From assembly GCA_002862785.1 (NCBI GenBank), contig PKDZ01000041.1, positions 1 through 37,633 on the forward strand: DNA of 37,633 nucleotides, read 5' to 3'. Below the pieces are notes generated by a model that saw only the letters and a program-made list of their open reading frames with translations, ran no database searches and was not told the DNA's origin. Below, piece after piece: positions 18,751-29,654 of the stretch (position 1 is the stretch's first letter; each line of letters opens with the position of its first letter). The position numbers and the translations under genes were made by a program. The stretch comes from Flavobacteriales bacterium (lineage in GTDB: Bacteria > Bacteroidota > Bacteroidia > Flavobacteriales_D > Sanyastnellaceae).

Positions 18751-19478
18751 GCTCCGATTCGCCCCGCATCCTGCTCGTAGAGGACGACCCCTCCCTTGGC
18801 CTGATCCTGCACGACCTCCTCCGCCTCGAGGGCTACACCGTCGACCTGATCCGGGACGGGCGGGAAGCCCTGCCCGCCTATCATGCCGCAGAGGTGGACC
18901 TCGCCGTGCTCGATGTCATGCTCCCTGGGCGGGATGGATTTGCCCTGACCGAAGACCTCCGCATGGTCTCCCCCACGCTGCCCATCCTCATCCTGACCGC
19001 CCGCGACCGGGTGGAGGACCGGGTCCGGGGCCTCAAGGCCGGAGCGGATGACTATGTGATCAAGCCATTCGACAACGAGGAGCTCCTCCTCCGCATCGGG
19101 AGTCTACTGAAACGGGCACAGCCACGGGACGAGGGGCAAGCCAACACCCTGTGCGTCGGATCGTTCACCCTCGACCGGGAGTCGTACATGTTGAGCTGGC
19201 CCGAAGGCGAACAGCGGCTCACCCGCAAGGAGGGCGACGTCCTCAAGCTGCTGATGCAACGGGAAGGCCGGACCACGGAGCGCGACCTCATCGGCCGCCT
19301 CGTATGGGGCGAATCCGGCTATTTCATTGGACGGAGCATGGACGTGTACATCGCCCGGCTCCGGAAGATCCTGAAGGCCGACCCCTCGGTCCGGCTCGAA
19401 ACCTTGCATGGCGTTGGATTCCGATTGGATGGTCCCGACCGAGCGGGGAGTCCTCAGTCGCAGACCAGCCCGAAGTAG
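18747..19478 (+). CDS. OmpR/PhoB-family response regulator
   Basis: A 243-residue DNA-binding regulator. Receiver domain residues 1-125 contain the acidic pair EDD near the start, the phospho-acceptor Asp56 in VLDVMLPG, and Lys in VIKPFD. Residues 135-230 form the OmpR-type winged helix (LTRKEGDVLKLLM, then SMDVYIARLRKIL and the wing TLHGVGFRL). It forms a cognate pair with the kinase upstream. The target genes cannot be read from the window. The last 25 nt overlap the 3' end of the convergent arylsulfotransferase-like gene (19454-19478), which leaves no room for a terminator between them. Confidence 0.93.
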   Translation: MSSDSPRILLVEDDPSLGLILHDLLRLEGYTVDLIRDGREALPAYHAAEVDLAVLDVMLPGRDGFALTEDLRMVSPTLPILILTARDRVEDRVRGLKAGADDYVIKPFDNEELLLRIGSLLKRAQPRDEGQANTLCVGSFTLDRESYMLSWPEGEQRLTRKEGDVLKLLMQREGRTTERDLIGRLVWGESGYFIGRSMDVYIARLRKILKADPSVRLETLHGVGFRLDGPDRAGSPQSQTSPK

Positions 19479-21367
19479 GTCAGCAATTCGAGCACATCGG
19501 CCACGCCGATCAAGCCGTCGTCGTTGAGGTCGGGCTGGCAGTCCTCAGCCGGACTGAAGGCGCAACTCCCGTCATCGAAGAAGGCGCCCGAGTCGAAGTT
19601 GTCGGCTCCCACCAGCGTGCATCCCACTCCGTTGCCGGAACCGCACAAGGTATCGTCTCCGGCAAACGGGGAAAAGCCTGGGTCGTCCGGATCCGTGCAT
19701 CCCGGACAGGAAGAGGCCGCTTGGCCCAGACAGGCTCGAATCACCTCGCCATCCCAATCGACCGGCCAGGTGAGATCGAGAGTCCGCTGGATTCCATCCG
19801 GCTGTCCATCCGCCTTGAAGCCATAAGTCCAGACTCCATTGCCGACCACGAGGCTGCCCGTCCACGTTCCAAATCCTCCGGCTTCAAAAGTCAGCGTCGG
19901 CAAATCAAGCCAGGCCAGACCCACCGAGGCCGGGACCGCCCCCCATTGCGTGGCATCCACCCTGAACTCAAGCAGATACTGGCAACTGCCGTCGTCAAAC
20001 GGCAATGTCGAGCATGGGTTGAAGTTCAGGGCCATCGGATCGAGGCACTGGTCGGCCTCAGGGTCCGCGAACGGCACCTCGCCGACGCACTCGCATTGGT
20101 TGTTGACGGCGTCCTGCACTGTGCAAGGGTCTCCGTCATCGCAGGGCGATCCCACGAACAGGCACTCGCCGTCCACCACGGCCAGCTGGTCGTAGTTGCA
20201 GGCGGCTGTGTTGCGGCATCCGATGCGCAACGGCAGGGCACCCGCAGGCACTTTCCGGGCGCGGTAGTTCCAGTAGTTCGCGGGGAAGTACACGGTCCCG
20301 AGCAGGTCCCCGGAGGCCGAGTATTCCGACACCATGCCCCCGTTGTATTCGTCGGATCCCGCCGTTCCCCAGCCAATCAGGGTGCCCCCATCCTCCAGGC
20401 GCTGGATGCTGCCCTGCGAACCGGCAAAGTTGCCGTCCGGGTGGGGCCACGTCTCGATGACCGTGGCGGTCCAATTGTCGTAGTCGAGCTGGTATTCCAC
20501 GCCTCGGGAGGTAAGGGGTTCACTGCCGGTGGCGTTGTCGAAGACGATCATCCTGTTGCCGGGCAGCAGCTGGGCATCGTGCTGCTGGGCGAAGGCGCCG
20601 GTCGCGTCGGTGAAGGTGAAATTGCTCTCGGGACCGCCCATCTGCCAAGCGAGGCCACCCGAAGTCCGGTCGATGCGGACCACGAGGTCCATGTTGCGCA
20701 TGCAGAGCAGGATGTCTCCATTTTCCTGCGTTTCGAAGGCATTGTGGTGATAGGCGTCGATCAGGGAGGCTTCCCAATTGCAGTGGGAACAGAATGTGGC
20801 CGGGATGTGGTCGGAGGCCCGCCAGGTCCAGATGATGTCTCCGTTCTCATCGAGCTCTTGGAGGATGCAATCGATGACCGCTCGGGACGGATTGTCCGGA
20901 TCGGGAACGCTGTCGGCGACATTCATGGTGATGATCTCCGACCCCATCAGGAGAGAGGTGCCATCTGCCCGCAGTTCGAGGTCATGGAAATCCACATCGG
21001 CTCCGACAAACTCAATGATGTTCGAGACGAGCAGAGAACTGTCCAGCTCGTGCCACCAGCCCTCGAGTGTCGAGAACCAAGCGACCGTGCCATTCTCGTG
21101 GAGGTCAAAGTTGAACCCCTCAAAGGGACGGAGTTGGTTGTGCCGGGCGACACCGGCTTCATCGATGACGAGCGGATAGGTCAGGTTGGAGCTGAAGCGC
21201 GGTGCGGACAGGATCCAACCGGGCGCAAACTGCTGGCCGGGCTCCATCTCCACGGTGATGTCCAGTCCGGCGCCGGTCTGTGCGTGAAGTCCCCCGGCGA
21301 AACAGGCGGCTCCGAGCATGAGAACGCACACGACCACCCCGGAAAATCCGGGGAACAATTTTTTCAT
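19454..21367 (-). CDS. Secreted arylsulfotransferase-like protein with Cys-rich repeats and a C-terminal dockerin-like module
   Basis: A 637-residue exported protein. A signal peptide (MKKLFPGF, hydrophobic core, cleavage near LHAQ) is followed by about 370 residues resembling the ASST/arylsulfotransferase beta-propeller family (HDLELRADGT, WEASLIDAYHHNAFE, LAWQMGG, QQHDAQLLPGNRMIVFDN). Further on come diverged copies of the GCTDxxACNYD repeat (GCRNTAACNYD; CLDPMALNFNP) and an Ig-like or carbohydrate-binding-like stretch. The protein ends in a single dockerin-like EF-hand loop (DLNDDGLIGVADVLELLTYFG, key positions D, N, D, G, D). No T9SS type-A tail is present. Substrate and catalytic competence are unknown. 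The ATG at 21367 starts the signal peptide; a longer open frame upstream is not convincing. Confidence 0.78.
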   Translation of the reverse strand: MKKLFPGFSGVVVCVLMLGAACFAGGLHAQTGAGLDITVEMEPGQQFAPGWILSAPRFSSNLTYPLVIDEAGVARHNQLRPFEGFNFDLHENGTVAWFSTLEGWWHELDSSLLVSNIIEFVGADVDFHDLELRADGTSLLMGSEIITMNVADSVPDPDNPSRAVIDCILQELDENGDIIWTWRASDHIPATFCSHCNWEASLIDAYHHNAFETQENGDILLCMRNMDLVVRIDRTSGGLAWQMGGPESNFTFTDATGAFAQQHDAQLLPGNRMIVFDNATGSEPLTSRGVEYQLDYDNWTATVIETWPHPDGNFAGSQGSIQRLEDGGTLIGWGTAGSDEYNGGMVSEYSASGDLLGTVYFPANYWNYRARKVPAGALPLRIGCRNTAACNYDQLAVVDGECLFVGSPCDDGDPCTVQDAVNNQCECVGEVPFADPEADQCLDPMALNFNPCSTLPFDDGSCQYLLEFRVDATQWGAVPASVGLAWLDLPTLTFEAGGFGTWTGSLVVGNGVWTYGFKADGQPDGIQRTLDLTWPVDWDGEVIRACLGQAASSCPGCTDPDDPGFSPFAGDDTLCGSGNGVGCTLVGADNFDSGAFFDDGSCAFSPAEDCQPDLNDDGLIGVADVLELLTYFGLVCD

Positions 21368-21450
21368 GCCGGGTCCGTCTTGTGCGTGGTACACTCGACC
21401 TTCGACAGACCGTCGGTCGCGGCGCCCGCCTTCACACCCATTGGAGAGAA

Positions 21451-22053
21451 ATGACATCTCGTCTACAATTTACTAATTTTAATCGAGTTTTTTTGCATTT
21501 TAGACGAACGAATGTTGCAAAGAAGCCGGGGGTTGTCCTCGTCCTCATCGCCCTGACATTGCTGGGGTTTGACAACTCGACCCATGCGCAGGTTCGCATC
21601 GAGTCCGGAGGCCGATGGGATCTGATCAATGCGGGACTCGGAATGAGCACCCGTGGACTGCCCGTCTTCATCGGGTTGGAGCAGACCGTGGACGACCACA
21701 TTTCAGCGGGGTTGATCGGCACCTTCCAATCCTACCGGGAGAGCGGCGCCGCCGGGACCTGGGCCCATCAGTTCTACGGGGTGGGTCTCCAGGGCAATTA
21801 CCATTTCATCGAACTCGCCCCCGCCCCGTATGACTTCTTCGCCGGCCTGACGGTCGCTTGGACGGCCCACAGTTTCCGCTGGGCCGGAACAGGCGCGGCC
21901 CCGGGATCCTATGACGGCAGCGCCATCGGCGGCACGGGTTTGAGCGCCCAGATCGGAGGACGCTATATGTACAAGGGCACCACCTTCCTCCTGCAATTGG
22001 ATGGCGGCACCCTCACCAGCGGTTTCCTCGCGGGCCTCAGCTTTCCCCTGTGA
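21451..22053 (+). CDS. Predicted outer-membrane beta-barrel protein
   Basis: An exported protein of up to 200 residues. A signal peptide (KKPGVVLVLIALTLLG, cleavage near THAQ) is followed by alternating amphipathic strands with many Gly and aromatic residues, ending in FPL, as in small outer-membrane barrels. No specific family is recognised. The start is doubtful: the ATG at 21451 lies in AT-rich sequence with codons unlike the rest of the gene, and 21451-21510 looks like a promoter region. An in-frame TTG at 21493, with TAATTTTA 11 nt before it, would give a shorter n-region and may be the true start. It overlaps the next gene by 1 nt (TGATG) and so belongs to the waaA operon. Confidence 0.6.
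   Translation: MTSRLQFTNFNRVFLHFRRTNVAKKPGVVLVLIALTLLGFDNSTHAQVRIESGGRWDLINAGLGMSTRGLPVFIGLEQTVDDHISAGLIGTFQSYRESGAAGTWAHQFYGVGLQGNYHFIELAPAPYDFFAGLTVAWTAHSFRWAGTGAAPGSYDGSAIGGTGLSAQIGGRYMYKGTTFLLQLDGGTLTSGFLAGLSFPL
21482..21508 (+). promoter_or_regulatory. Motif ATCGA-N11-TTTTAGaCGAA, copy 1
   Basis: The gapped motif occurs once here and once at 29687-29713 with identical spacing and 15 identical defined bases. Both copies lie in AT-rich gaps upstream of minus-strand genes for dockerin-like secreted proteins. No known regulator is assigned. Confidence 0.3.
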
Positions 22054-24378: not shown

Positions 24379-27300
24379 ATGAGAATTTCCTCAACCTCCT
24401 TTTCCGTCGAACAGCGGAATTCCCTCTCTCCCTCCTTTCATCCAACAGCCTTCAAAAGTTCCATTGAGCGACTTCGTCTGGGCCTTTTGTACACCAGTCT
24501 GATTCTAGCGCTTGGATTGTCTGGTAAAATGGTGGTACATGCCCAAGTTGCCCAAGGTGGTGCCCCTTGGAAATGGGGCTCATTTATCGACTTGTCGAAT
24601 ATTCCTCAGATTACAACTGGAGAGCTCGACCTGACAGTCCTCAATGCTGAGGACGCAGTAACAGACCAGTACAAAGAAGCACCTTGGAGGTTTGGCGTAG
24701 AGCGCGAAGTCAATCTTGGGCTGGACAATGCGGGTGAGTGGACGTTCGATAAGGATCGTTGGATTTGGCGTTTGGCCATTCACTGTCCCGGAGCGACTGG
24801 CATAGGCCTGACCCTTGGCAGCTTTGATGTACCGGAAGGTGCGGCTCTGTTCATTTGGAACAATGACCGGACCCAATTCCTCGGCAGTTTTACTGAGGCT
24901 AACGAGAAGGATTGGGGCTTCTTGCCTGTCGGCCTTTTGGATGACGACCAAATTGTTGTGGAGTACCAAGAGCCACTTGGCGTCCACGGCCTAGGCGACG
25001 TGCGCATCAGCCAAATCATCCACGGTTACCGGAGTCTGCTGCTCCACCCACTAAGTCCCACAGCCAATCAATCGAACATGGGGCCCTTTGGCAATTCAGG
25101 CGCCTGCAATATCAATGTCAATTGTCCTGAAGGTTCAGCTTGGCAAACGCCCAAGAAATCCGTTGCCCTCATCACCAATGGTGGATTCGCCGTCTGCTCA
25201 GGAGCCTTGGTCAACAACACGTCCGAAGACGGAACGCCCTTTTTCCTTACCGCCAACCATTGCCTCGGAAATCCCAACAGCTGGGTCTACTATTTCAACC
25301 ATGAAAGCAGCACCTGTGGTGGAAATACAGGACCCACGGACCAAAGCATTTCCGGGGGAACGCTGTTGGTCAACAGTGGTGCAAGCGATGTGGCCCTGAT
25401 TGAGTTAAGTTCCGCTCCTCCAGCCAGCTATGATGTAGAATATGCGGGATGGGATGCGAGTGGATCAACTCCAACCTCTGCAGTAGGCATTCACCACCCA
25501 AGCGGTGATGTCAAAAAAATCTGTTTTGACGATGATGCGCCGTACACCTCGACTGCCGGAGGCGCACAAGTTTGGTGGATTGATGCCTGGGAATTAGGCG
25601 TAACAGAACCCGGTTCATCCGGCTCTCCCCTCTTTGACCAAAACCAGCGCATCATTGGCCAGCTCTATGGCGGTGCGGCAGCGTGCAATGGCTCGGTCAA
25701 CAACGGTGCTTATGACTATTACGGACGCATGGATGTGTCATGGGGAGTTGGGCTGTCGGGCTATCTCGACCCGCTGGGGACTGGACAACTGTTCCTCGAC
25801 AGCTATCCCACCAACAGCAACCCGGATGCGGGATGCACGGACCCCACCGCATGCAATTACGATCCTGAAGCCACAGAAGACAACGGAACCTGCCAAGACG
25901 AAGACGTTTGTGGAATCTGTGGTGGAGACGGAACCAGCTGCACGGGCTGCACGGACTCCACGGCCTGCAATTATGATGAGACGGCCACCGTTGACGATGG
26001 ATCCTGCATTTTCCCGCAAAACGATCTTCCCTGCAATTGTGATGCAGAAGGTGCAGTCGACGTTGTTCTCGGTGCCGAGGAGTCATCATCCTCCTTCACG
26101 TTCAGCGCTGAAGGGACCCCCGAAAGCTTGGACATCAACTTGAATTGGACCAACCTTAATGGTGGTGGAAGCTGGCCTGCGGACTTAGCCATCTCCATCA
26201 CTGGACCCGATGGTGGTTGCGTGGCCATTGGAGGTTACAACGCAAGCCCTGCCGGATGCACGAGTTTGGGCAACTATGACCTTTGGCCGGCCGACTGGCA
26301 GGTCACGGCATCGGGCAACTACACCGCCTCGGTCGACTTGACAGGAAATGGACTCAGCGGAAATGGAAGTTGGTCCGTCTCCCTGTTCAATGGTTACGGT
26401 ATTTCTGACAATGTCCAATACGACGCCTCGTGGTCCATTTCCGGCCTCTGTGGCTCCGGTGGTGGAGGCATTGGCGGCTGTACCGACAGCACCGCCTGCA
26501 ACTACGATCCGTCCGCCGTCATCGACGATGGTTCCTGCCTCGCACTGGATCTGTGCGGCGTCTGCGGTGGCGATGACAGCAGTTGCGGTGGCTGTACCGA
26601 CAGCACCGCCTGCAACTACGATCCGTCCGCCGTCATCGACGATGGTTCCTGCCTCGCACTGGACCTGTGCGGCGTCTGCGGTGGCGATGACAGCAGTTGC
26701 GGTGGCTGCACCGACAGCACCGCCTGCAACTACGATCCGTCCGCCGTCATTGACGATGGTTCATGCCTCGCCGAGGGCCTCGCCTTCTCATTGACCATCC
26801 TGCTCGACAACTACCCTGGAGAGACGACCTGGGGTCTGGTAGACAGCACGGGTGCCACCATTGCCACAGGCGGGCCTTATGTGGACCAGGGGGCTACTGT
26901 AGTCGAGAACTTCTGTGCGGGTGATGGGTGCTACACCTTCACCATTTTCGACAGCTTCGGAGACGGCATCTGCTGCGCATACGGGTTTGGCGATTACGCG
27001 CTCACCGTGGACGGCGCCCTCGTAACCGCCGGCGGGGAGTTCGGTGACCTTGAATCCACCTCGTTCTGTGTGGGTAGCGGATTTGGCTGCACCGACGCTA
27101 CGGCCTGCAACTACGATCCGGATGCCACCATCGACAATGGCGTCTGTGACTTCAGCTGCTATGGCTGCACCGACCCGGCGAGCTGCAACTACGACCCGGA
27201 CGCGACCATCGACGACGGCTCCTGTATCGGTGACGGCATCCCAGTCACGGTCAGCGTCACCACGGACACCTGGCCAGGAGAGACGACCTGGACCTTGGCC

Positions 27301-28983
27301 GACAGTGTCGGTACTGTCCTGATCTCCGGTGGCCCCTACACCAGCTCGGGCACTACGGACGAACAGTCCGTTTGCGTCGGGGACGGATGCTACACCTTTG
27401 AGATCCTCGACAGCTTCGGAGACGGAATCTTCGATCCGGGCGGCTACACGTTGACGGTGGATTCCGCCGTCATCGCCTCCGGCGGCGCCTTTGGCACGGG
27501 AGAGTCCATCGAGTTCTGCACCGACAACCTCAACTTCGGATGCACGGATCCGGCGGCCTGCAACTACGATCCGGACGCCGGCATCGACAATGGCACCTGT
27601 GACTTCAGCTGCCTCGGATGCACGCTCGAGGCCGCGTGCAACTACGACCCCAGCGCCACCGTGGATGACGGCTCCTGCCTCTTCGACGACGACTGCGGCG
27701 TCTGCGGCGGAGACAACAGCACCTGCGGCGGTTGCACCGATCCGGCGGCCTGCAACTACGATCCCGACGCCATCATCGATGATGGCTCTTGCATCATTGG
27801 CGGCCTGAACTTCACCATGACCACCGTGCTCGACAACTACCCCGGAGAATTCTCCTGGGTCCTCGCCGACGAAACCGGAGCCCCCGTTTGGTCCGGAGGT
27901 ACGTACGGCGGACAGAGCGGCACCGTCGTGGAGACCACTTGCCTGCCCGAGGGATGCTATGACCTGACGGTCAACGACAGCTTTGGCGACGGCATCTGCT
28001 GCGCCTTTGGCGATGGCTCCTACACCCTCGAGGTGGCCGGCACCACGGTCGCCACAGGTGGCGATTTCGGCAGTACGGAGACGACGAGCTTCTGCACCGG
28101 GGACGACATCCCGGGCTGCACGGACGCGGCGGCCTGCAACTACAACCCGTCCGCCACGCTGGATGACGGCTCCTGTGCCTACCCGCCGGCCGACAACCTC
28201 GATTGTGACGGGAACTGCCTCAACGACGCCGACAACGACGGCATCTGCGACGAGGACGAGCAAGCGGAGAGCAGCTTCGTCCAGCTCGGCTACGATGTCG
28301 TGGGCCAGAACACGGTGGCCGGCATGACCACCTACCGCGTATGGGTGGAGCTCGCCGATCCGACCGAGCAGCTCGTTGCGGTCTACGGATTCGACAGCGT
28401 CCCGCTGACCATCAACACGACCACGGCCTTCTACCAGAATCCACTCGGCGGTGCCCTCGCCGTGGACTACAACCCGGCTGTGCTTCCGGTGGACCCACTC
28501 CTCGAGTTCGACAGCTGGCTGACGGTGGGCGGACAGGACAACTCCGCGGACGTGAGCACGATCGGACTGGACTTCGCAGCCTTCGAAAGTGCCGGAGGGG
28601 CCATTGTGGCGGACGATGTCAACGGCGGCTCGGTGTTCATCTACCCCGACCTCGAACCCACGGCCTTCCCGGATGAGGACGGCCACGTCCTCATCGCGCA
28701 ACTGACCACGGACGGCGAGGTGAACCTCACGGTCAACCTGCAGACCCGGAGGGCAGATGGCGAGAACCCGCAGATCCTTCAGCAGAGCCTCACCTTCCAG
28801 GAAGTCTATGAGTGCTTCGGCGACTTCAACAACGACGGCGTGGTCGGCATCGGTGACCTGCTGATGCTGCTCGGCGACTTCGGTTGTCCGGCGGACTGCA
28901 ACCACGACATGAACGGAGACGGCAGTGTGACCACCTCCGACATGTTGGTCATGCTTTCCCTCTTCGGCGAGTCCTGCGACTGA
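24379..28983 (+). CDS. Large secreted trypsin-like serine protease with Cys-rich repeats and C-terminal dockerin-like modules
   Basis: A 1534-residue exported protein. A long N-terminal segment precedes a signal peptide (hydrophobic LLYTSLILALGLSG, cleavage near VVHAQ). Residues about 230-470 form a lysyl-endopeptidase/trypsin-like domain with His294 (TANHC), Asp337 (ASDVALIEL) and Ser414 (GSSGSPLF). A beta-sandwich resembling a proprotein-convertase P or CUB-like domain follows (about 550-690). The rest holds eleven GCTDxxACNYD repeats (nucleotides 25831-28176), four CGVCGGD spacers, and three beta modules of about 95 residues with a DSFGDGI signature. The end has two dockerin-like EF-hand loops (DFNNDGVVGIGDLL; DMNGDGSVTTSDML). 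No T9SS type-A tail is seen. The first 2 kb is clearly less GC-rich than the rest. It is flanked by tRNA-Gly and tRNA-Leu. Confidence 0.85.
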   Translation: MRISSTSFSVEQRNSLSPSFHPTAFKSSIERLRLGLLYTSLILALGLSGKMVVHAQVAQGGAPWKWGSFIDLSNIPQITTGELDLTVLNAEDAVTDQYKEAPWRFGVEREVNLGLDNAGEWTFDKDRWIWRLAIHCPGATGIGLTLGSFDVPEGAALFIWNNDRTQFLGSFTEANEKDWGFLPVGLLDDDQIVVEYQEPLGVHGLGDVRISQIIHGYRSLLLHPLSPTANQSNMGPFGNSGACNINVNCPEGSAWQTPKKSVALITNGGFAVCSGALVNNTSEDGTPFFLTANHCLGNPNSWVYYFNHESSTCGGNTGPTDQSISGGTLLVNSGASDVALIELSSAPPASYDVEYAGWDASGSTPTSAVGIHHPSGDVKKICFDDDAPYTSTAGGAQVWWIDAWELGVTEPGSSGSPLFDQNQRIIGQLYGGAAACNGSVNNGAYDYYGRMDVSWGVGLSGYLDPLGTGQLFLDSYPTNSNPDAGCTDPTACNYDPEATEDNGTCQDEDVCGICGGDGTSCTGCTDSTACNYDETATVDDGSCIFPQNDLPCNCDAEGAVDVVLGAEESSSSFTFSAEGTPESLDINLNWTNLNGGGSWPADLAISITGPDGGCVAIGGYNASPAGCTSLGNYDLWPADWQVTASGNYTASVDLTGNGLSGNGSWSVSLFNGYGISDNVQYDASWSISGLCGSGGGGIGGCTDSTACNYDPSAVIDDGSCLALDLCGVCGGDDSSCGGCTDSTACNYDPSAVIDDGSCLALDLCGVCGGDDSSCGGCTDSTACNYDPSAVIDDGSCLAEGLAFSLTILLDNYPGETTWGLVDSTGATIATGGPYVDQGATVVENFCAGDGCYTFTIFDSFGDGICCAYGFGDYALTVDGALVTAGGEFGDLESTSFCVGSGFGCTDATACNYDPDATIDNGVCDFSCYGCTDPASCNYDPDATIDDGSCIGDGIPVTVSVTTDTWPGETTWTLADSVGTVLISGGPYTSSGTTDEQSVCVGDGCYTFEILDSFGDGIFDPGGYTLTVDSAVIASGGAFGTGESIEFCTDNLNFGCTDPAACNYDPDAGIDNGTCDFSCLGCTLEAACNYDPSATVDDGSCLFDDDCGVCGGDNSTCGGCTDPAACNYDPDAIIDDGSCIIGGLNFTMTTVLDNYPGEFSWVLADETGAPVWSGGTYGGQSGTVVETTCLPEGCYDLTVNDSFGDGICCAFGDGSYTLEVAGTTVATGGDFGSTETTSFCTGDDIPGCTDAAACNYNPSATLDDGSCAYPPADNLDCDGNCLNDADNDGICDEDEQAESSFVQLGYDVVGQNTVAGMTTYRVWVELADPTEQLVAVYGFDSVPLTINTTTAFYQNPLGGALAVDYNPAVLPVDPLLEFDSWLTVGGQDNSADVSTIGLDFAAFESAGGAIVADDVNGGSVFIYPDLEPTAFPDEDGHVLIAQLTTDGEVNLTVNLQTRRADGENPQILQQSLTFQEVYECFGDFNNDGVVGIGDLLMLLGDFGCPADCNHDMNGDGSVTTSDMLVMLSLFGESCD
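26476..26771 (+). repeat. Tandem 114-bp coding repeat, 2.6 copies
   Basis: Units start at 26476, 26590 and 26704, each 114 bp (38 codons: one GCTDxxACNYD repeat plus one CGVCGGDDSSC spacer). By eye the first two differ at one base (GAT/GAC); the third is partial with a few more changes. The near-identity points to recent duplication inside the protease gene. Confidence 0.9.
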
Positions 28984-29174: not shown

Positions 29175-29654
29175 TCAGTCGAGGACGGACGAGACCCAGC
29201 GTAAGCCGGTCCAGACGAGTTCGGCGTAGCGCCCATTGGTCTCGAACTGGCGGGCCAGCGCGAGCCAGTTGCCTGCGGCGTCCTGGAGGTAGACCTGCTG
29301 GTCGTCCATGTCGGGCTGCTTCTCGACCGCCATGCGGAAGGATTGGCCGGGGAACTCCCCATCGGGCACCGTCACATAGAGGTAGGGTAAGGTGAAGTCC
29401 TCAGCGATGTAGAGGTCGTAACCGAGGGGCAGGACCGTGGTGGTGTCCGGGTCGAAATGGAGGACGCTCGGTCCGATGGCCTCGACATCGTAGGGGAGAC
29501 CGTAAACGGCCAGCACGGCGATCACATCGCCTGCCCCGATCTGGCCATCGCCATTGGCGTCGGGGTTGAACGCTTGGGCATGACCCGGTCCGGCCAGAAG
29601 ACAGATGAGGAGCGCAAACGCGGCGCGAAGGGACAAGCGGGAAACGGCGTGCAT
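29175..29654 (-). CDS. Small secreted protein with an N-terminal dockerin-like EF-hand module
   Basis: A 159-residue exported protein. The signal peptide (LRAAFALLICLLAGPGHAQ) is followed directly by DANGDGQIGAGDVIAVLAVYG, the same EF-hand/dockerin-like pattern that ends two other secreted proteins in this window. The remaining 115 residues are beta-rich and match nothing I know. The ATG at 29654 starts the signal peptide; the frame stays open far upstream across the wbpE-like gene on the other strand, but that part is not coding. It lies between tRNA-Leu and the sugar operon. Confidence 0.65.
   Translation of the reverse strand: MHAVSRLSLRAAFALLICLLAGPGHAQAFNPDANGDGQIGAGDVIAVLAVYGLPYDVEAIGPSVLHFDPDTTTVLPLGYDLYIAEDFTLPYLYVTVPDGEFPGQSFRMAVEKQPDMDDQQVYLQDAAGNWLALARQFETNGRYAELVWTGLRWVSSVLD

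Follow-up and report, generated by a model that had tools for sequence, protein, structure and literature searches.

The locus discussed here raises the question of what a short, dockerin-like EF-hand unit does at the very end of secreted proteins in a genome that also encodes many proteins with the standard type-A tail of the T9SS. In the window, i.e., the whole stretch of 37,633 nucleotides that was analysed, the module is found as originally described: an EF-hand loop ends the arylsulfotransferase-like protein P0001, two units end the protease P0002, and one directly follows the signal peptide of a small protein. The features are the following:

19454..21457, minus strand: P0001, with a signal peptide, an arylsulfotransferase-like domain, DDGSC-type cysteine repeats, and the terminal module
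19457..19540, minus strand: single terminal EF-hand/dockerin-type unit, the last 28 residues of P0001 (profile E 3.0e-12, 48.7 bits)
24379..28983, plus strand: P0002, with a trypsin-like protease, cysteine repeats, and a two-unit tail
28813..28884, plus strand: first unit of the P0002 tail (profile E 4.4e-6)
28897..28980, plus strand: terminal unit of the P0002 tail, the top profile match of the genome (E 2.0e-14)
29175..29654, minus strand: small secreted protein, 159 aa from a likely start at about 29654, with no recognised tail
29496..29564, minus strand: N-terminal unit of the small protein, lacking the two cysteines (profile E 3.3e-6)

The likely start of P0001 is the MKKLF at 21367, and its translation from the minus strand ends in ...CQPDLNDDGLIGVADVLELLTYFGLVCD*. 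Pfam classifies this protein as ASST-like (PF14269/PF05935) and assigns P0002, which ends in ...FGESCD*, to Trypsin_2. The small protein gave no Pfam or NCBIfam match over 29175-29612, its first 14 residues being absent from that scan, and a PADLOC scan of the P0002 tail came back empty. A loose regular expression for the loop, run over the six frames of the window, returned four units (one in P0001, two in P0002, one in the small protein) and no others. Long open frames lie opposite P0002 (26788-29079, minus strand) and P0001 (19151-21454, plus strand); at a GC content of 63%, they most likely just mirror the coding strands.

Abundance, anatomy, and relatives of the module

Searched with a profile built from 16 of its own terminal units, the window's genome yielded 85 matches at E<=1, the best of them at 2e-14, and the sharing of the module by three secreted proteins of the window, as first noticed, thus understated its abundance. 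We read the DNA around 83 of the 85 matches, leaving out short partial ones on contigs C47 and C75, and these 83 fall in 64 ORFs. The predicted bias towards protein ends was borne out, since 55 of the 64 ORFs have at most 8 residues between their last unit and the stop (0 residues in 30 carriers, 1 in 15, 2 in five, 3 in two, and 5, 6, and 8 in one each), which rules out a random scatter along proteins. The other nine ORFs have N-terminal units (five), internal units (three), or a likely chance match (one, at E 0.72, in an ORF that by eye is of the TonB type). Chance or low complexity as the origin of the matches is ruled out by the contrast between these 85 matches and the phylum at large, where only 4 of 395 genomes have any at E<=1e-4. 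Of the 55 terminal carriers, eight are truncated on their 5' side by the edge of a contig, and three are mini-ORFs of doubtful standing, on C6 (two) and C62 (one). Among the 47 carrier ORFs complete at the 5' end, 44 have a signal-peptide-like start according to our own heuristic, which was used with no control set. On C6, at about 50.0-50.4 kb, two tiny ORFs (L101) are each barely more than a pair of units devoid of cysteines, with no signal peptide by the same heuristic.

The module is made of a dockerin-type EF-hand loop and a helix between two cysteines, with the consensus C-x2-D-x-[DN]-x-D-G...D-L-L...L-x2-F-G-x2-C-(D/E)-end. The 55 last units have D at loop position 1 (55), D or N at position 3 (50), D (47) or N (5) at position 5, G at position 6 (50), and D at position 12 (54), and a leucine of the helix is nearly invariant (54/55). 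The helix is followed by F, Y, or W (52/53), G (43/53), and the closing cysteine (53/53). In 50 of the 55 tails no more than 3 residues follow the last cysteine, E or D being the commonest next residue, and 48 have a second cysteine upstream of the loop. Two units occur in 18 carriers (adjacent in 17, spaced in one) and a single one in 37. Cysteine-rich repeats of the type GCTDxxACNYDPxAxxDDGSC are present in P0002 and in 36 of the 55 terminal carriers. Single-sequence structure predictions of the tail reached mean pLDDT values of 45 and 40, with a helix only at low confidence. The loop has the spacing typical of dockerins. It may bind calcium, and the two cysteines may form a disulphide.

Which known domain is this? 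A Pfam and NCBIfam scan of the last 220 residues or fewer of all 55 carriers (E<=0.01) matched Dockerin_1 in 11 tails, EF-hand_1 in nine, and NF041540, the GC-type dockerin domain-anchored protein, in seven. With dockerins of type I (PF00404) the module has in common the D-x-[DN]-x-D-G-x-[IV]-x3-D loop followed by a helix, and the wider EF-hand-type pattern D-x-[DN]-x-[DN]-G-x-[ILV]-x3-D holds as well (D or N at position 5 in 52 of 55). It differs from them in having two closing cysteines, no cohesin match in the genome, and mostly single units, the two tandem repeats being found in 18 of the 55 tails (P0001 has one unit, P0002 two). Against the Pfam Dockerin type I model (gathering threshold 22.9), P0001 gave no match and P0002 scored 19.2 bits, its two units together reaching 29.5 bits in the genome search. 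Among solved structures, the profile comes closest to the cellulosomal dockerin 2y3n_B (E 1.7e-11); further dockerins and a large number of calmodulins rank after it.

The two-unit tails match NF041540 over the whole model (1-67). The tail of P0002 differs in scoring 25.2 bits (28813-28977), under the cut-off of 29, and most tails here have a single unit. The window's genome has seven matches, all under the cut-off (the best reaches 28.7 of 29 bits), and neither G019 nor G032 has any, yet 6 of the 9 genomes searched, all six in the window's family, pass it. For this reason we take the two-unit form, by sequence, to be this named domain of the curated collection, and tails with one unit to be a variant of NF041540. 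GC-type dockerins were probably modelled mainly on Planctomycetota. In the portions of the PMC literature consulted, we found no paper naming the NF041540 or GC-type dockerin family, and no account of the tail in the available parts of articles on dockerins, T9SS tail types, and dockerins of Flavobacteriales/Bacteroidetes or Planctomycetes (including PMC10202324 and PMC11557425). If the tail does the work of a type-A tail, these dockerins, so far a database name in the literature portions covered, would gain a place where their function can be looked for. The PEP-CTERM and GlyGly-CTERM systems, as far as the excerpts describe them, are similar in being short C-terminal homology tails common to many proteins of one genome. 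Their tails finish with a transmembrane helix followed by basic residues, whereas the tail described here is closed by a cysteine and mostly acidic at its end.

Exchange with type-A T9SS tails on homologous proteins

Like the T9SS tails (type A, PF18962/TIGR04183, and types B and C), the module stands at the C-terminus of proteins that have signal peptides, and it alternates with type A. It differs from them in being far shorter, in its EF-hand-type loop, and in having no T9SS model match: the families listed for the 55 tails at E<=0.01, 3 from NCBIfam and 18 from Pfam, include no T9SS tail model, a result that holds for types A and B. Two weak internal matches to a home-made type-A profile, at E 1e-3 and 5e-5, turned up in proteins carrying the module. 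Type-A tails (PF18962) number at least 37 in the window's genome, 24-61 in genomes of its genus, and 82 in G019; one more, on contig C8, was detected with the home-made profile alone. The 37 type-A ORFs of the window's genome include none with a terminal module and one with an internal module.

With repeats masked, we set the bodies of all 55 carriers against type-A ORFs, 37 from their own genome and 75 from G019, where the other 12 of 87 matches were weak, cut, or interrupted. Some stretch is shared at E<=1e-5 by 41 of the 55, in many cases through repeats only. A stricter set of 21 carriers shares at least 250 aa at 30% identity or more and E<=1e-30 with a type-A-tailed ORF, although some of these matches run through the adhesin-type domains of one giant ORF. 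The clearest cases include 1) P0002, with a type-A-tailed homologue in G019 (48% over 451 aa); 2) C1_p_14002 (38% over 401 aa, of a body of 432 aa); 3) C5_p_44727 (47% over 624 aa); 4) two haloperoxidase-like carriers (51 and 55% over 659 and 620 aa); and 5) two paralogues within the window's genome, on C29 and C30, that have different tails (75% over 411 aa). P0001 is not an exchange case, because it matches the type-A ORFs of its own genome and of G019 through repeats only; its relative L140, in Flavobacteriales bacterium isolate PL36313bin_11, has the same tail. The proposal that the module works in place of the type-A tail holds on two results: the tails are free of T9SS model matches, and homologous enzymes carry either one. 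The proposal that it works beside that tail holds in part: two proteins with an internal module (L147 and L283, on C8, glycoside-hydrolase-like by eye) end in a type-A tail, and no terminal carrier does.

The alternation is best followed in the haloperoxidase-like family (DUF6851/VCPO_2nd by Pfam), which has 48 matches in 27 of 32 genomes. We read 47 of these ORFs, to their ends where possible, leaving out a fragment at a contig start in G020. Type-A tails, called with a home-made profile from PF18962 segments, end 26 of them, and the module ends 19 (18 by script and one, L252, by eye, with the module 14 residues from the stop); two run into the end of a contig. No ORF has both tails, and every one that is complete at the 3' end has one or the other. 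Paralogues of both tail kinds coexist in four genomes (G017, G021, G022, and G043). A quick tree of 44 bodies requires four tail changes, two of them forced by starred branches. Since the AU test did not reject a single clade of module-tailed proteins (p 0.37), we dropped the claim of several independent swaps in this family and retain at least one. The two complete rows from other families (f2 and f4) have type-A tails, which makes the replacement of a type-A tail by the module, at least once, the likelier direction by sequence.

Because related enzymes carry either this tail or a T9SS tail, the former probably works as an alternative address label. We give an even chance to a more specific reading, in which a tag for targeting or docking, akin to GC-type dockerins and placed at the C-terminus, substitutes for the type-A tail. 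The process would involve 1) export of the carrier by Sec with its signal peptide; 2) binding of calcium, outside the cytoplasm, by the 12-residue D-x-[DN]-x-D-G loop; 3) closure of the loop-helix by the two flanking cysteines; 4) capture of the folded, mostly acidic end (...FGxxC-D/E-COOH) by a partner other than a recognisable cohesin; and 5) a surface or extracellular location provided by this partner, as the type-A tail provides for the homologues. The sequences establish where the tail sits, its motif, the lack of T9SS model matches, the exchange with type-A tails, and the expansion in one family, whereas calcium, the disulphide, the partner, the final location, and the way across the outer membrane are what we infer here. 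If the tail does the work of type A, then 55 proteins of this genome would be labelled by a tag of about one third of the type-A length, against at least 37 that bear the usual T9SS one. Related enzymes that differ in their tails form natural pairs, which would then make it possible to test how C-terminal signals are read by the T9SS or at the cell surface.

An alternative is that calcium and the disulphide lock the tail into a structural cap that has no partner, and that the carriers stay in the periplasm or are exported in some other way. Stabilising structure is a common role of Dx[DN]xDG calcium loops in the parts of PMC3123361 consulted, which counts for such a cap, as does the failure to find a partner in the genome. 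The tail also closely follows a cysteine-rich DDGSC repeat (within 45 residues) in 24 of the 37 single-unit cases, against 2 of the 18 others, and the same repeat precedes 1 of the 37 type-A tails of the window's genome and 0 of 75 in G019. Yet neither such consistent alternation with type A (26 against 19, none with both) nor a place at the stop of so many kinds of proteins is what one would expect of a cap, and we regard it as unlikely.

Partners, export, and other positions of the unit

A docking-only module would be expected beside an export tail. Because it stands alone in the 55 carriers, either the module or its partner would have to supply the address, unless the carriers are periplasmic, and this is why we rank the targeting or docking tag first, a T9SS signal and a cap next, and docking on cohesins last. 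In the last case, the tails would dock on cohesin-bearing scaffoldins in a classical cellulosome-like assembly, as the relatedness of the profile to a cellulosomal dockerin (2y3n_B, its top solved structure) might suggest. But the cohesin-like partner that had been envisaged did not turn up: a search of the window's genome with PF00963 gave no match at E<=0.1, although a divergent cohesin could escape such a search. In a sample of 40 genomes, eight had some match and four passed the cut-off, one of the latter in the window's family (G024, with 13 module copies). Furthermore, the top dockerin chains match twice, unlike 37 of the 55 tails, which consist of one unit, and the Pfam families found in 31 carriers (the first 25 of 36 families) are mostly not cellulases. 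We therefore consider such an assembly very improbable.

Could the tail be instead an export signal of the T9SS, of a class beside A, B, and C, that the same translocon recognises either by itself or with the help of an adaptor? It occupies the position of the type-A tail and alternates with it in homologues, PorV-family proteins were found in 27 of the 27 genomes searched, and two of the three internal modules (L147 and L283) are followed by an extra type-A tail, as if export needed a C-terminal module. In the available parts of PMC10202324, the type B and C regions are of about 100 residues. The module has 28 residues against the 75 positions of the PF18962 model, and type-A tails are present in 39 of 40 sampled genomes of the order, whereas the module occurs in bulk in one family only. 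PorV-family copies (two or three in four genomes of the window's genus, three or four in four g4 genomes) are not more numerous where the module abounds, which speaks against this reading and rules out extra copies as a dedicated receptor. On balance, a T9SS signal seems doubtful to us.

The preferred targeting or docking tag does not account for all positions of the unit. Five ORFs of the window's genome, i.e., the small protein and those at C1:50596, C49:11238, C60:7350, and C76:1595, have the unit at the same N-terminal place and no recognised tail, and four of the five lack the two cysteines. The small protein is thus a carrier, as had been claimed, in that the unit is there, and it belongs to this N-terminal group rather than to the terminal one. 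A pair of internal units on C19 is likewise in an ORF with no recognised tail. These six ORFs fit poorly with a purely C-terminal tag, and the N-terminal carriers show that the unit also has another use. The sequences fit a terminal module that replaces the type-A tail and an N-terminal variant used otherwise, most easily in binding.

Distribution and possible founder

At E<=1e-4, the module was found in 121 of the 299 genomes surveyed in the order, most of the surveyed genomes being drafts: 106 of the 114 genomes of the window's family, against 15 of 185 elsewhere, these 15 belonging to two families and having one or two copies each. Within the window's family, most genera have at least 27 copies per genome, with fewer in g24 (4-7), g9 (3-9), and g27 (1-2). 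At the same threshold, none was found in seven of seven g4 genomes nor in one g27 genome; G019 (g4) has one weak copy (E 0.005). All 17 genomes of the window's genus have 46-108 matches at E<=0.01. The four matching genomes of the phylum survey (E<=1e-4) are the window's own, G021 (same family), G032, and G360, the match in the latter being internal. Among 33 loci from other genomes, a biased choice of the best-scoring ones, 32 end 0-5 residues from the stop.

The lone copies of G032 (f9), G027 (f4), and G019 (g4) are on mutually homologous proteins (38-55% over 389-508 aa), which are also related to the own-genome carriers on C29 and C18 (29-39% over 179-529 aa). These homologies may point to an early founder protein for the tail. 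The simplest reading of the sequences is that the tail sat early on this one protein and later spread in one family. A bolder version, which we hold to be rather improbable, would add the module to the sorting signals of the T9SS as a fourth class: a tag of 28 residues, folded by calcium and a disulphide, that replaced the type-A domain, sat early on one widespread secreted protein, and spread in one Flavobacteriales family (to about 50 proteins in the window's genome) with a family-specific receptor or adaptor. The three lone copies (L079, L081, and L082) are all on one homologous protein.
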